Positions 4,450 to 27,296 of a stretch of DNA of 38,351 bases are shown here, piece by piece (positions within the stretch are counted from its first letter, which is position 1; every line of letters starts with the position of its first letter). The notes below the pieces were generated by a model. It was not told the origin of the DNA. It ran no database searches and worked only from the letters and a program-made list of their open reading frames with translations. Source of the stretch: a virus; IMG/VR virus record IMGVR_UViG_3300007770_000038, positions 1 to 38,351 of that record; one strand, 5' to 3'. The position numbers were made by a program, and so were the translations under genes.

Positions 4450-6150
4450 CTGGCCTCTCCACTCAAGGGCTTTGTCTTTTATTATTTTTGTAGAAGAGTT
4501 TCCAGCTTTTTCCTCCAACATATCATCAAATTTTTTAATTTCATCTTGATAATTTTCATCAGTAAGCGAATTAAGTTTTTGTTCCTTCCAAAAGCGTGAA
4601 AGCAAATCATAAGCATCTTCTGCACCAATTAAAGAAACTTTTACAGAAGCCTGCTTGGCAATATCAATAGTCTCTTCTTTTTTTAAGCCTTCTGTATCAA
4701 TAATAATTGCTTTAGGAGCCGCAGTTTTATCAAACAACCTAGTTGCAATGTGCTTGGCAAAATCTCTGTGAATTTCTTTTGCATCAAATTCTTTAGTAAC
4801 GTCACTTTCGCCTCCAGATGCAAAAACCAAAATATCATCTTTAGTGGCATCTTTATATAAAGCTGCCAAGTAAGTTGACATTAGTTTTAGTTTTGCATTT
4901 TGAGTAAAATCTTCGCTCGTAATTAAATCGTTAATTCCTTGAAAATCTTTTTTCCTAGCATCAAAAAAATTGCCCCTATAAATAGATGTTTCTAATTTTT
5001 TTTGAGCGTCTACATATTCTTCTGAGTCTATTCCCTTTGAGCCAAGTTGCCCTTTGTTAATGTTGAGAAGTGCCTGATAAGTTTCTTCTCCAAAAATACT
5101 TTTATATTGCTCTATTTCTGACTCGTCTAATAAACCTTGTTGAGCTTGTGTTTTAAAGTTAGACAAAAGAGTTAAATCGCTTCTCAACCTAGTTGTTTCT
5201 TCACTTATTAACGATCTTCTTTTTGCCTCATTAGACTCAAGTTCGGCATTTGCTTGAGTGCGAGTTATTTCTCCTTTTTTAACATAATCTTCTATTTTAG
5301 ATTTGTTTAACTCAATCTGGTCAAGGGTTTGAGTTTTAGAAATTAACAAAGAAATTTTAGAAACAAGTTCTTTTGACCCCTCATCAAATTTCTTTTTCTC
5401 TACACCTTTTTTATATTGAAGATAGTCTGCCTCAAGCTTGTCGTTCCAGACCCCTTTGTTTCTAGCATCTGCTTTTATTAAATCTAAATTTTCTGTCAAC
5501 CTCGTCTGGTAAGCACGATCCAACGAGTCTTTAATTGCTGCATTTCTTTCAATTAGGGTTGCCTTGGCTTCGTCTTCTTGTTTTTTAGTTATTGCTGCTA
5601 AAGCCTCATTTATTCTTGCCTGTTCTAATTCTGGGCTAAGATCCAATGAGCGAATCCCTGCATATGCAGCATCTACATCCATAGCATTTACGGCATTAGC
5701 AATAACCTGTTCCCCGGTTGCCATCTTGTCTTGCTCGGCTTTTTGAGCACTCCAAGACATGCTGTTAGAATAAAGCTGCTGGGTCCACAGGTCGTTGTTT
5801 TGCTGAAGAGCCTCACGAGCGGTTTTGCTTACACCAGGAGTAAACGTAAGCTTTCTAGTTTGTGATGCAAAATCGTCTATAATTGCTGGATGCTCAGATA
5901 TGTCAGCATCCCTAAGCCTAGCCTCAAGCTCTGCGGCCCTTTCGTCTTGATGAATTTTAACCTGATTTGCTTCTTTGGTGTCAATTGCTTTTTGTTTTTC
6001 AACTCTGGCTTGCTCAACTAATTGACCAGCCTCTGCTGACGCAGACGCAATGCTGCGAAAGAATGCGTCCTGGGAGTTAATATTTACTTGGCCCCCAATA
6101 GATGGCTTAGCTCTAACGTCTTCTGGTTTACTTGTAGGTATCCTCGGCAT
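4423..6150 (-). CDS. Internal virion protein C-like, coiled-coil (T7 gp15-position)
   Basis: 575 residues, mostly charged and helical, with long predicted coiled coils (for example the AELEARLRDADI and KKQEDEAKATLIERNA regions) and no membrane segment. It begins with MPRIPTSKPEDV at ATG 6148-6150, and the AGGA preceding the start overlaps the upstream stop. It sits between the gp14-like and giant proteins, the place of the T7 internal core protein gp15; the function is inferred from position. It is strongly AT-rich: one hand-counted 60-base block at 4981 has 30 percent GC. Its stop TAA is in the same frame as the giant gene and only 12 bases before that gene's GTG, so readthrough would fuse the two. 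Confidence 0.75.
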   Translation of the reverse strand: MPRIPTSKPEDVRAKPSIGGQVNINSQDAFFRSIASASAEAGQLVEQARVEKQKAIDTKEANQVKIHQDERAAELEARLRDADISEHPAIIDDFASQTRKLTFTPGVSKTAREALQQNNDLWTQQLYSNSMSWSAQKAEQDKMATGEQVIANAVNAMDVDAAYAGIRSLDLSPELEQARINEALAAITKKQEDEAKATLIERNAAIKDSLDRAYQTRLTENLDLIKADARNKGVWNDKLEADYLQYKKGVEKKKFDEGSKELVSKISLLISKTQTLDQIELNKSKIEDYVKKGEITRTQANAELESNEAKRRSLISEETTRLRSDLTLLSNFKTQAQQGLLDESEIEQYKSIFGEETYQALLNINKGQLGSKGIDSEEYVDAQKKLETSIYRGNFFDARKKDFQGINDLITSEDFTQNAKLKLMSTYLAALYKDATKDDILVFASGGESDVTKEFDAKEIHRDFAKHIATRLFDKTAAPKAIIIDTEGLKKEETIDIAKQASVKVSLIGAEDAYDLLSRFWKEQKLNSLTDENYQDEIKKFDDMLEEKAGNSSTKIIKDKALEWRGQVSKFYRAK

Positions 6151-15636: not shown

Positions 15637-17199
15637 TTAAAAACCATTAACCGGTTCCTCAACATAGACCGGCCCTTTGCGTTTGTCCTGAGTGTACCCG
15701 ACCGTCGTGCTTAACAAGCCATGCTCGATGCCTTCCGCTACATACCTAGCAGCATCAGCGGCGTGAGAAGTAAAATCGTGGACAGGCACAGTGCCTAGTA
15801 TGCCAGCAGCATCGTTCTTTTTGGCCCTGTACTGCTGCAGCATCTTAAGTCCATCCTCCATGTTGGGGCGATAGAAATAAGACTTGTGCAGCAGACTTCT
15901 CAAGTTGTTAATGCCACGCCACACATCCCTCGTCTTAGGGCACACCTTGATGTTGTTGCCGCCACAATCGCGAAGCTCCATAACATAGTTCTTGGTTCCG
16001 GTCTTGTCCATGTACGCAGCGTCATGCGGTAGGATGTGGCCGTACACACCGTAGCCCGACATAGCAAGCTCAGACACATACTCCCGAGTTTGCTTTTGAC
16101 TGCCCTGGGTAAACCATAGCCACTTAAGCGTAACCCCATCCCATTGCACCAACCATATAGCCGTGTAGTCACGGAAACCCAAATCCCATACGGCCCATAT
16201 TGGCACTTCCTTGCTAGCTGGCAAATCGTTTCGGTAGTGGCCTTTTCTCCTAACAACCTCCAGTATGTCGGCGTATATGGCACCATCGACAGGAGCAGCC
16301 ATTGCTTCTTCTGGCGTAGAGGGAAACTCCCGTCCCATAAATAGGCCAAGAAGGTCGCTTTGTTTTTGCCACCATATCTTCTGCGAAACGGTAAACTTTC
16401 GGTTTACACGCTCTTCTAGTTCCGCAAAGTAATCTATTGTGCTTTGCGTAAGCAACGACTCGTCGCCTACCATTTTGTAGCTGGCGTCATCGTACCAAGG
16501 ATAGAACAGGAACTTGAAGTCCATGTCGGTCCTATGCTCATCCGTAGTGTTCATGGCTTGGACTACTTGATTATAAAAGTGGCCCGACTGACCACCCTCA
16601 TAGGTAGACTCGATAAAAACTATAGCACCCTGACCAGCAGTAGGCAAAGCACCGGTAAGGATTTCTTCAGACCTAATAGGATCTTTGGCCGCAACCTTTC
16701 CCCACTCCGACACATGCAGCACCTGGCTTGTGCCACCACGAATTTTGACCTTCGACCTAATCTTCCATACCGGACTAAACACTAACTCGTTTAAGTTGCT
16801 GTTAACCACATCAACCGTGGCTTTCAGGGAATCGTCTAGCTGGTTAAAAGGCTGGATAACCTTCTCTCTCAACAAATCCTTTGCCGCCTCGTCATTATGA
16901 GACTGGATGTTGAACGTGCTGTTCTCGTGAGTTAATACATAGTCTAGGCCAATAATGGCAATGAGGGTTGACATCCCAAGCTGTCTAGCTTTAAGTATAA
17001 GCACACGTTTGTGCCCTTCTAGGAATACCTCGTTAAGCACATCGCACTGAGCGTCATTCGGAACAAACTGAACCTCTACGCCTTCCTTGGTTATGCAGGT
17101 GTATAGGTTGCCTATTCGCCACACTGGGTTGGCAAACGACTCCTCTCTAATGGGCTCGGCCATAATTTCCCGAACCTTCGCTATTCCTTCTCTGTTCAT
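15637..17199 (-). CDS. Large terminase subunit
   Basis: 520 residues. The ATPase loop KARQLGMSTL is at residues 70-79, and a Walker B-like strand AIVFIESTYEG is near 193-203. The RNase H-like nuclease half starts with WAVWDLGFRDYTAIWLVQW near 330, has HDAAYMDKTG later, and ends with HAADAARYVAEGI, where the Asp residues are the likely metal ligands. It cuts concatemeric DNA and powers packaging into the portal. The ATG at 17197-17199 is only four bases after the encoded CCA of the tRNA-like RNA, so it lacks a normal ribosome site. Confidence 0.95.
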   Translation of the reverse strand: MNREGIAKVREIMAEPIREESFANPVWRIGNLYTCITKEGVEVQFVPNDAQCDVLNEVFLEGHKRVLILKARQLGMSTLIAIIGLDYVLTHENSTFNIQSHNDEAAKDLLREKVIQPFNQLDDSLKATVDVVNSNLNELVFSPVWKIRSKVKIRGGTSQVLHVSEWGKVAAKDPIRSEEILTGALPTAGQGAIVFIESTYEGGQSGHFYNQVVQAMNTTDEHRTDMDFKFLFYPWYDDASYKMVGDESLLTQSTIDYFAELEERVNRKFTVSQKIWWQKQSDLLGLFMGREFPSTPEEAMAAPVDGAIYADILEVVRRKGHYRNDLPASKEVPIWAVWDLGFRDYTAIWLVQWDGVTLKWLWFTQGSQKQTREYVSELAMSGYGVYGHILPHDAAYMDKTGTKNYVMELRDCGGNNIKVCPKTRDVWRGINNLRSLLHKSYFYRPNMEDGLKMLQQYRAKKNDAAGILGTVPVHDFTSHAADAARYVAEGIEHGLLSTTVGYTQDKRKGPVYVEEPVNGF

Positions 17200-17203
17200 T
17201 TTT

Positions 17204-17272
17204 TGGTGGAGGAAGTGGGATTTGCACCCACGTCCGTTTGCTATTCGCGAACGTCGAATCTATGTTTCCCCC
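17204..17272 (-). ncRNA. Mini tmRNA-like RNA: tRNA-like domain only
   Basis: A 69-base sequence on the minus strand folds as follows. The acceptor is GGGGGAA with TTCCTCC (seven pairs, including G3:U70, the alanine identity pair), then A73 and an encoded CCA. A stemless D region contains GATTCGACG, a signature of tmRNA 5-prime ends. Next comes a P2-like helix CGTT-GC with GC-AACG (one C/A mismatch) capped by GAATA. A GGAC linker precedes a perfect T stem GTGGG/CCCAC. The E. coli tmRNA shares GATTCGACG and CGGACG before its T arm. There is no tag-coding region or pseudoknot. The T loop is TGCAAAT, with G instead of T at position 55. It is one base after the upstream gene's stop and four before the terminase ATG. 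It could be functional, a decoy or an attachment-site relic. Confidence 0.8.
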
Positions 17273-17273
17273 T

Positions 17274-17645
17274 CTACTTTGTCTTAGTCTTGTTTTTTGT
17301 TATTTCTCTTATTAAGTAATCCATTAAATAAGCTCCGGCCTCTTGGCCCTCCAACCCCAAATACTCCAGGGCCCCAACCACGGCATGGTACGCCTCGTGA
17401 GCATATGTGTCCACCGTAGACCATTTCAACGCTTCCTTAACAAATATGCCCTGCACTATCCCCAGGTCAAGCCTAAAGCCAGCAGTGTTCTCGCAAGTTT
17501 TTAAATTTCCAACCTGCTCCTCTATTTCCCTTACACTAGCCCCCTCTTTGACCATAGCGTCAACGAACCCCCCATAGTCTTTACTGCCACCCCATATGAT
17601 GAACGAACAGGGGTAGACGTTGGGCTTTAGCACAAGCTTAATCAT
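17274..17645 (-). CDS. Small HExxH-motif phage protein, unknown
   Basis: 123 residues. The C-terminal half reads WSTVDTYAHEAYHAVVGALE, with HEAYH as a possible HExxH zinc site, followed by EAGAYLMDYLIREIT in which a Glu could be the third ligand. The pattern HEA-[FY]-HA then a Glu-containing helix recurs in short phage proteins of undefined role. A metallopeptidase-like fold is inferred; activity is uncertain at this size. Its TAG ends one base before the tRNA-like RNA. No Shine-Dalgarno site is evident before ATG 17643-17645. Confidence 0.65.
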   Translation of the reverse strand: MIKLVLKPNVYPCSFIIWGGSKDYGGFVDAMVKEGASVREIEEQVGNLKTCENTAGFRLDLGIVQGIFVKEALKWSTVDTYAHEAYHAVVGALEYLGLEGQEAGAYLMDYLIREITKNKTKTK

Positions 17646-25207: not shown

Positions 25208-25962
25208 GCCACTTCTATACACAGCAAAAGAACGGCAAGGTAAAGCTGCTGAAGAGCATCGACACTATAGCCAAGGCAAGAGGTCACGGAAACTGCGTCA
25301 AGAGCGTGACCACTGTACTGTCCCTGTTCCCAAGGCAGCTACGTGGCTTTGACATTAACGAATGGCGTGAGCGTAAGTTGGTCCACTTAGCTAGGGAGTA
25401 CCCAGAGGACACGGAGGACAAGCTTAGGGAAAGACTATGGGGCTACCGCACCGACCTTGATGGTAGCGAGCTAACCTCCTCTGAGTTTGGAACCAAGCTG
25501 CACGCAGAGATGGAGGAGGCGATCAACCAGCGAATGCTAGGGGCAGACTACCACAGCGAGTACCGCCACTTCTACCGACCATTCCTTGTTTGGATAGACT
25601 CCCTCGGGATTTACCCCCAACTAGTGGAGCATTCAGTTATCGACACTGAACGCAGGGTGGCAGGCATGATCGACTTTATCGGAGAGCGTGACGACAAGCC
25701 AGTGTTGATGGACTTCAAGTTCAGGCAAGGAGATCCACGCAAGAAGAGCTACGAGACTGACCTGTGCCAGCTTGCGGTGGAGGCAGACATAATAGCCGAG
25801 GAGTGGGGTTTCGAACTTTGCGACGTTGACTGCTACAGCGTCATCTTCGACTGCGAGACTGCCCAGATGCACGTCAAGAAGTGGCCGCTGCACAAGGTCG
25901 AGTGGGGCATTGAGGCGTTTGATTACCTGAACGGAGCATACAACTTCTTCACTGGACTTTGA
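25204..25962 (+). CDS. PD-(D/E)XK exonuclease, RecB/Cas4-like
   Basis: 252 residues. GTKLHAEME (96-104) gives the early His/Glu motif, GMIDFIG carries the active-site Asp at 157, VLMDFKF supplies Asp170 and Lys172 of the D-x-K core, and DLCQLAVEA (around 187-195) is the Q motif of RecB-family nucleases. It is likely an ATP-independent exonuclease for recombination or host DNA breakdown. The upstream neighbour overlaps as ATGA, and the helicase start overlaps its own stop, so nuclease and helicase are probably made together. Confidence 0.85.
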   Translation: MSHFYTQQKNGKVKLLKSIDTIAKARGHGNCVKSVTTVLSLFPRQLRGFDINEWRERKLVHLAREYPEDTEDKLRERLWGYRTDLDGSELTSSEFGTKLHAEMEEAINQRMLGADYHSEYRHFYRPFLVWIDSLGIYPQLVEHSVIDTERRVAGMIDFIGERDDKPVLMDFKFRQGDPRKKSYETDLCQLAVEADIIAEEWGFELCDVDCYSVIFDCETAQMHVKKWPLHKVEWGIEAFDYLNGAYNFFTGL

Positions 25963-27296
25963 GCTTATCCCAACAGCAGCAGGAGGTATTTGACCTTATC
26001 AAGTCACGCAGGTGCAAGTTTGTCCGTCTCGATGGATCGGCTGGCACCGGCAAGAGCTACCTAATTGACCAAATCAGACAGTATGACAGAGCAGTTTGCA
26101 TCGTTGCCCCAACAGGCAGAGCGGCTTCCAATGTTCGAGGCGAAACTCTCTATAGAATGTTTGGCGTCCCGAGTGAGGGATCGCTTGACCCAGACGAGAG
26201 AGTCACTACACTCAGAGCAAAGCAAATCCAAACCAGATTCTTTGGACGCAAGAAGGATCGACTTCTACAAGGCATCTCTTGGATCGTAATCGAGGAGTAC
26301 ACGATGGTCAGGTGCGACCACATTGACTTCATCGACAAGGCTATGCGTAGGGCTACTGGCAACCCAGAGGCGTTCGGCGGCAAGCATGTGCTCTTTGTCG
26401 GTGGGCCAGGGCAATTGCTGCCAGTGGCTGACGAGAAGGATACCAAGACCTTGCTAGGATATGACTACCCTCCCCCATTTGGGTTGGAGCAGTCTAGGTT
26501 CTGGCGTGATAACGTAAACCACATACGGATTTGCAGCCTCAACCACATCTTCCGTCAGTCCAATCCCGTTGAGGCAAACATACTGGAACGTGTGAAGGTG
26601 GGCAAGCAGACTGACATAGATCTGCGACTCATAAACAGCAGGGTAGGGGAGCCTCACAACGCTGCCATGATCCTGACCCCATACCGCAAGAGGGCCAGCC
26701 AGATTAACGAGGCTAGGTTGTCTGGGCTAAAGAGCAAGGAGTATGTGTTCGAGGGTACGCAAAAGGGTGAGATGGATGAGGTGAGGAACATGGACCGCAC
26801 CTTGAAGCTCAGGGAGGGATGCCGTGTCATCATCAAGAAGAACATCCGCAAGAAGATTCGGGGCGAGATGCAGCACGTTGTCAATGGGGACACTGGCACC
26901 TTTGTGGGCATAGACAAGTACCAGCGGCTGGTGATAATCAGAGACAGCGACAGCGACTACGTTTACATTGGGCAGGAGAAGGAGAGCAAGTTTAAGCACG
27001 AGATGGACGGGGACGGCAACATTGAGTCCAAAGAGGTTGCCTACCTTAAGCAGTATCCCGTGCGGCTGGGCTACGCCCTTACGGTACACGCCAGCCAGGG
27101 GCTAACCCTAGATCGTGTCCACCTGGAGCTACCCAGTCATGTGATGAAGGACTGGTTCGGGCTACTTTACGTCGCGGTCAGCCGTGTCACATCCTTTTCG
27201 GGGCTCACAATCAGTAGACTTTTGACACACGGAGACATATCATCAACGATAGCAGACTTTGAGGAACCGCAACAGCAGTATGAGCTCGCAAACTGA
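25959..27296 (+). CDS. SF1 helicase, RecD/Dda-like
   Basis: 445 residues from a TTG at 25959 that overlaps the nuclease stop. Walker A GSAGTGKS is at 26-33, motif II reads IEEYTM at 111-116, motif III reads VGGPGQLLPV at 147-156, and the C-terminal motifs VHASQGLTLDRV and YVAVSRVTSFSGL (near 375-425) are the UvrD-C2 type. The usual Asp of motif III (GD) is Gly here and the first acidic residue of motif II is Glu. Dda and RecD2 relatives unwind DNA 5-prime to 3-prime and remodel forks. With no polymerase present it probably cooperates with the host replisome. Confidence 0.9.
   Translation: MSLSQQQQEVFDLIKSRRCKFVRLDGSAGTGKSYLIDQIRQYDRAVCIVAPTGRAASNVRGETLYRMFGVPSEGSLDPDERVTTLRAKQIQTRFFGRKKDRLLQGISWIVIEEYTMVRCDHIDFIDKAMRRATGNPEAFGGKHVLFVGGPGQLLPVADEKDTKTLLGYDYPPPFGLEQSRFWRDNVNHIRICSLNHIFRQSNPVEANILERVKVGKQTDIDLRLINSRVGEPHNAAMILTPYRKRASQINEARLSGLKSKEYVFEGTQKGEMDEVRNMDRTLKLREGCRVIIKKNIRKKIRGEMQHVVNGDTGTFVGIDKYQRLVIIRDSDSDYVYIGQEKESKFKHEMDGDGNIESKEVAYLKQYPVRLGYALTVHASQGLTLDRVHLELPSHVMKDWFGLLYVAVSRVTSFSGLTISRLLTHGDISSTIADFEEPQQQYELAN

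Follow-up and report, generated by a model that had tools for sequence, protein, structure and literature searches.

A 38,351-nt viral record from IMG/VR (IMGVR_UViG_3300007770_000038), which we analyzed over its whole length and refer to as the window, carries a 69-nt element on its minus strand, just upstream of the gene for the large terminase subunit (terL). This element is the complete tRNA-like domain (TLD) of a transfer-messenger RNA (tmRNA). We refer to such TLD-only tmRNAs as mini-tmRNAs or minis. The RNA is real and conserved and, as judged from its sequence, most likely functional. It belongs to the kind of TLD-only tmRNA described for Mycobacterium phage DS6A; the kind is already known from this one phage, while its breadth, at least about 51 groups of elements, is new. 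We propose, with a probability of roughly 0.6, that the mini of the window competes with the host tmRNA and blocks its tagging of proteins, a reading that builds on its sequence and on its likeness to the DS6A RNA.

The element and its classification

The full minus-strand sequence of the element, from 17272 to 17204, is GGGGGAAACATAGATTCGACGTTCGCGAATAGCAAACGGACGTGGGTGCAAATCCCACTTCCTCCACCA; its parts are listed in Table 1. The acceptor stem (GGGGGAA/TTCCTCC) forms seven pairs including G3:U70, the D region reads GATTCGACG, and all pairs of the T stem (GTGGG/CCCAC) are formed. The T loop, UGCAAAU, carries G instead of the usual U at position 55. Under its GAATA cap, the P2 stem pairs GTT.GC with GC.AAC and contains one internal C.A mismatch. 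An initial annotation of the sequence had named the acceptor with G3:U70, the discriminator A, CCA, the D region, the capped P2 stem, GGAC and the T stem, and all of these are present on the minus strand, although it had passed over the mismatch in P2. The minimum-free-energy structure (-22.7 kcal/mol) consists of exactly the proposed acceptor, P2 hairpin and T arm, and its energy (z -2.5) was equalled in one of 200 shuffles.

The Rfam tmRNA model RF00023 matches the element with 45.7 bits (E 4.9e-17), in an alignment that runs end to end over model positions 1-374, with both model ends aligned, and skips 316 positions of the message part. This confirms that resume codon, tag and pseudoknots are missing, as had been noted: the mRNA-like domain, which would contain resume codon, tag and stop, is absent, with P2 closing on a 5-nt loop, and pseudoknots are impossible because just 17 nt lie between UUCGAC and GGAC. 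A message domain encoded elsewhere would have made the element a mere fragment; RF00023 has a single match in the 38,351-base record, and therefore neither a second tmRNA piece nor a separate message domain was detected there. Likewise, R1, a covariance model derived from 16 elements that come from other phages and all lie outside the window's branch, has this element as its sole match in the window (58.3 bits, E 6e-12). ARAGORN, a program that expects a message domain, called neither a tRNA nor a tmRNA at this site.

Table 1. Features of the mini-tmRNA and its neighbouring genes in the window (bases compared with E. coli are in our own numbering).
Feature	Position	Strand	Basis
TLD-only tmRNA (mini-tmRNA), 69 nt; 5' end 17272, 3' CCA 17206-17204	17204..17272	(-)	RF00023, model R1, fold
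Acceptor stem, 5' strand GGGGGAA; G3 = 17270	17266..17272	(-)	sequence
D-loop-like UUCGAC, which together with the A before it corresponds to E. coli A15, U17 and G19	17253..17258	(-)	sequence
P2 hairpin GTTCGCGAATAGCAAAC, loop GAATA, in place of the entire mRNA-like domain	17236..17252	(-)	fold; family P2 pairing
GGAC linker; A = E. coli A334 (SmpB pocket)	17232..17235	(-)	sequence, PMC8363625
T arm GTGGG-UGCAAAU-CCCAC	17215..17231	(-)	sequence; same arm with another stem in L008
Acceptor stem, 3' strand TTCCTCC; U70 = 17210	17208..17214	(-)	sequence
Discriminator A and encoded CCA	17204..17207	(-)	sequence
terL; start 4 nt past CCA	15637..17199	(-)	phrog_2 (terminase large subunit), E 2.5e-25
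Small open reading frame in terS position	17274..17645	(-)	phrog_1365 (unknown function), E 7.8e-08; terS by position only

With canonical tmRNA (ssrA, RF00023), the window RNA shares the acceptor, G3:U70, UUCGAC, GGAC and the T arm, and thus a TLD with the tmRNA-type D region and GGAC-T arm; unlike canonical tmRNA, it has no resume codon, tag or pseudoknots, and its P2 is a short closed hairpin. It is not a tRNA either, as it has no D stem and its hairpin has no anticodon loop; ARAGORN finds no tRNA in the window. The two-piece permuted tmRNAs of marine phages (e.g. Melnitz, PMC9004378) are phage-borne tmRNA genes as well, but their order is permuted and they include a full mRNA-like piece; in the window element, the order is normal and the corresponding model, RF04321, reaches only 14.9 bits. 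The coding-sequence-less organellar tmRNAs (RF02544) of mitochondria and Mallomonadaceae plastids, the latter about 65 bp, have no tag frame, as in the mini (PMC11915505). They differ in being organellar, usually permuted in the mitochondrial form, and accompanied by a nucleus-encoded SmpB, whereas no SmpB was found in the 34 carrier records searched, one of which (L066) proved to have no mini after all.

Being a TLD and little else in a phage genome, the element comes closest to the TLD-only tmRNA of DS6A (tmID 11587; PMC4131195 and PMC11915505), a likeness that refers to the published description. According to PMC4131195, a DS6A-like TLD molecule, alanine-charged or not, strongly inhibits tmRNA (citing Mao et al., 2009), perhaps by titration of SmpB. 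The initial annotation knew of no phage RNA of such a form, and that of DS6A is one. It is the only phage TLD-only tmRNA named in the literature we consulted, and we found no report of a wider family in the searchable open-licence literature. DS6A is a single phage; the family described here spans at least about 51 groups, includes a gene-nested form, and is common in phages.

A family of mini-tmRNAs in phages

We scanned viral contigs (IMG/VR) for a D sequence of the tmRNA type, GAC, a T loop and a terminal UCCACCA, with only 9-39 nt between, and obtained at least 119 stretches. Filtering these for acceptor pairing and adding other loci yielded at least 118 loci with at least 95 distinct elements of 64-85 nt, seven acceptor pairs being formed in 116 of the 118. 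The distinct elements fall into at least about 51 groups, which are clusters by shared 8-mers rather than tree-based lineages; all family counts are lower bounds. Loci L002-L005 represent a variant whose T stem has an additional base. Matches to a pattern with an extra base after the T loop (L021-L027) were discarded as chance hits, and a match in Synechococcus phage S-CAM1 as the acceptor piece of a permuted tmRNA.

The stems of these elements are kept by compensatory change. Over the 95 elements, the T stem is paired in 100% of cells (67% with shuffled partners), acceptor pairs 4-7 in 99.7% (67%), and the first five P2 pairs are standard in 94% (50%). In 20 divergent sequences, 109 double-changed cells compare with 27 in shuffles, and the covariation score is 0.847 versus 0.18, with slid controls at 0.07-0.17.

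Our first patterns fixed U70, and the scan was therefore repeated with position 70 unconstrained: among the matches then listed, G3:U70 is present in each of the 86 distinct elements whose acceptor helix is well formed, while the neighbouring acceptor pairs 5-7 are free to vary. We read this as probable selection on the identity pair for alanyl-tRNA synthetase (AlaRS). Because it has G3:U70, A73 and CCA, the window RNA is predicted to be alanine-chargeable and should be charged in this way. SmpB contacts tmRNA at A15, U17, G19 and A334, and the crystal structure of a truncated tmRNA with SmpB and EF-Tu on the ribosome has been solved (PMC8363625); all four contact bases, in our own numbering, are present in the window element.

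The minis are essentially viral. A similar pattern run over bacterial and archaeal contigs (genome_contigs, 84,980 species) gave 66 matches, of which only six are true minis, some of them clearly in phage DNA; the remaining 60 are not minis, most being 3' portions of normal full-length tmRNAs in which TTCGAC occurs by chance. One of the six, on a Prochlorococcus single-cell contig, is identical to the element of a viral contig (L178/L128). The others lie on two contigs of one Bacillota metagenome-assembled genome (MAG), on one contig of a Hydrogenophaga MAG, and on two more; the Bacillota and Hydrogenophaga contigs carry large tRNA arrays (checked in L164 and L205). Among cultured phages, the Streptomyces isolates LuckySocke, GiJojo, pSt2308, Alone3 and BRock have a mini beside tRNA genes, the RNA being unannotated. 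The Alone3 copy (38.7 bits, mismatched T stem) looks decayed.

The window itself belongs to a branch of about 25 loci of the GGGGGAAA.ATAGATTCGAC type. In most of them, the RNA is embedded, in frame, in a small open reading frame (ORF), MNGKGDRDRT...RIF-[GGNIDST...DVGANPTSST]-IE..PIRHGIRKIIE, which is found upstream of terL in L031 and L090. In 14 aligned members, the flanks of the nested RNA evolve as coding sequence, with 29% and 43% of third codon positions differing compared with 4-22% of first and second ones, whereas the RNA part hardly changes at any codon position (third about 5%); selection therefore acts on the RNA. The small protein had no match among isolates, PHROGs or Pfam. Three more distant proteins (L261-L263) have its N-terminal part and no RNA, and in L251 and L255 a tRNA-Thr comes after the 3' half of the RNA without a change of frame. 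In L006, with a TerL 99% identical to that of the window, the terS/terL gap holds a 67-residue version with a degenerate N-terminus and an RNA with a wholly different P2, TCAGGGGGAGACTTCTGA; the window itself no longer encodes the protein part but has retained the RNA. In L008 (97% TerL identity), the mini occupies another site and its T stem is rebuilt as GCCGC/GCGGC.

Possible function and alternative explanations

If the mini competes with host tmRNA, it would be transcribed together with the packaging genes and then trimmed in the manner of a tRNA. Host AlaRS would charge it with alanine via G3:U70, host SmpB and EF-Tu would bind it through UUCGA and GGAC, and it would contend with host tmRNA for SmpB and stalled ribosomes. 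Because it has no resume codon or tag, it could not complete trans-translation, and ssrA tagging and proteolysis would drop during infection. The strictness of G3:U70 suggests a charged dead-end acceptor somewhat more than a pure SmpB sponge.

Several observations weigh against this reading. The Rfam score of the window element lies 1.3 bits under the curated gathering score of 47, which is exceeded in 25 of the 28 mini-bearing records sampled, and its P2 contains the C.A mismatch. One record, G005, holds a full tmRNA besides a mini, as the only such record among 28 searched with the tmRNA model. Most scans required UUCGAC, GAC and CCA, so that their conservation is partly a matter of ascertainment; among relatives reached via the protein rather than the RNA pattern, UUCGA occurs in 22 of 26 and CUCGA instead in three. 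Moreover, the inhibition described in 2009 was independent of alanine according to PMC4131195, and titration alone would leave the invariant G3:U70 unexplained. Finally, many close terL relatives have no mini at the terS/terL junction. The initial annotation had made its interpretation depend on the fold in related phages and on there being no message domain elsewhere, and here the outcome favours the RNA, as the fold covaries and no such domain was detected in the record, even though these relatives do without the mini at this site. Together with the displaced mini of L008, its absence from them at the junction implies that the RNA moves or is lost, and that its fold is kept where it is present.

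The main rival holds that the mini rescues ribosomes without tagging: charged and bound to SmpB, it would take over the nascent chain and release it, sparing phage proteins from proteolysis, much as has been suggested for tag-less mitochondrial tmRNA. This would explain the strict G3:U70, and tag-less tmRNAs do persist in mitochondria, there with SmpB, and in Mallomonadaceae plastids (PMC11915505). We nevertheless consider it unlikely, since a similar phage form inhibits tmRNA (PMC4131195), host tmRNA is normally present, and no release route is known. Less probable still is a tRNA-like processing or cis element, which would direct an RNase P or 3'-end cut of a polycistronic late mRNA before terL or shape the start of translation. 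The mini does lie 1 nt past the stop codon of the terS-like ORF and 4 nt ahead of the terL start, such that its excision from the late transcript would give terL a 4-nt leader and a nearly leaderless mRNA, and the L108 lineage is packed alike, with its mini wedged between a terS-like gene and the one that follows. Yet its position varies, with a tRNA within 500 nt in 13 of 51 groups and unrelated genes beside others; such an element needs neither the invariant G3:U70 nor the SmpB-contact bases, and close relatives manage without it.

We rate just as low an alanyl-RNA with a use unrelated to SmpB, such as donating alanine or serving as a decoy for defences or toxins that target tRNAs. The conserved charging identity and the tRNA arrays of some carriers would agree with it, but the SmpB-contacting UUCGA and GGAC are also kept, and the RNA offers nucleases no anticodon. 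Lastly, the initial annotation had placed a relic of integration into ssrA beside a decoy against trans-translation. The TLD-only decoy is the best supported of its proposals, whereas the idea that the mini is the decaying remnant of an attachment site or of the host's ssrA is largely refuted and very improbable: ssrA is a frequent target of integration by genomic islands (PMC11915505) and decayed-looking copies such as that of Alone3 exist, but both halves are retained around a short P2 with compensatory changes in at least about 51 groups, scarcely any minis occur in bacterial genomes, and the window's branch lost protein coding while keeping the RNA.

The number of groups, the near-absence from bacterial genomes and the misses by ARAGORN suggest that phage interference with trans-translation is a common strategy. 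Tentatively, and with rather more doubt than confidence, TLD-only tmRNAs might be a general and mostly unannotated phage counter-measure, acting as alanine-charged dead-end acceptors, with RNA and protein production from the nested gene competing in one branch. The cultured Streptomyces phages make interference with trans-translation testable, the minis provide a natural set of minimal SmpB, AlaRS and EF-Tu substrates, and the window's branch is an example of a coding gene with a structured RNA inside it.

Genomic surroundings and further observations

Minis are found near terminase genes in the window and in L031, L088, L108 and L133. A fixed link to these genes does not hold, as many minis lie kilobases away and others adjoin unrelated genes, and a terminase-specific role is unlikely. 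At the same terS/terL junction, just upstream of terL, L009, L012 and L018 carry another, roughly 60-nt insert, which is not a mini: the best R1 match in the L009 stretch scores 9.1 bits and lies on the other strand. In the window, a second, weak phrog_2 (terminase) match with two internal TGA stops (25884-26387, plus strand) possibly encodes another P-loop ATPase.

ARAGORN calls overlap the mini in only three of 51 groups. The full tmRNAs it reports in L034 and L095 look spurious, the mini itself being complete there. The 123.6-kb viral record G005 encodes a full tmRNA (G005:77588-77979, L280; ARAGORN tag SPEYRIRLLTNTKW) and a TLD-only one (G005:46486-46567). Two different minis occur in the L003 phage (L003:1562-1638 and 5108-5183), one with the extra T-stem base. 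The tRNA-Thr genes that follow the nested RNA in its branch have the anticodon UGT (L251:1062-1137 and L255:2024-2099), such that translation of one continuous frame runs across two RNA genes. An RNA-binding protein (phrog_850; L089:7147-8670) is encoded close to one mini, and in LuckySocke a Ro-like RNA-binding protein (L217:1-552) about 5 kb from it. Minis with a long P2 (e.g. L061, L055, L080, L213) have a common inner motif, approximately AA(R)CC..A..GGA(A)C, which short-P2 forms do not have and which is a possible additional contact site.
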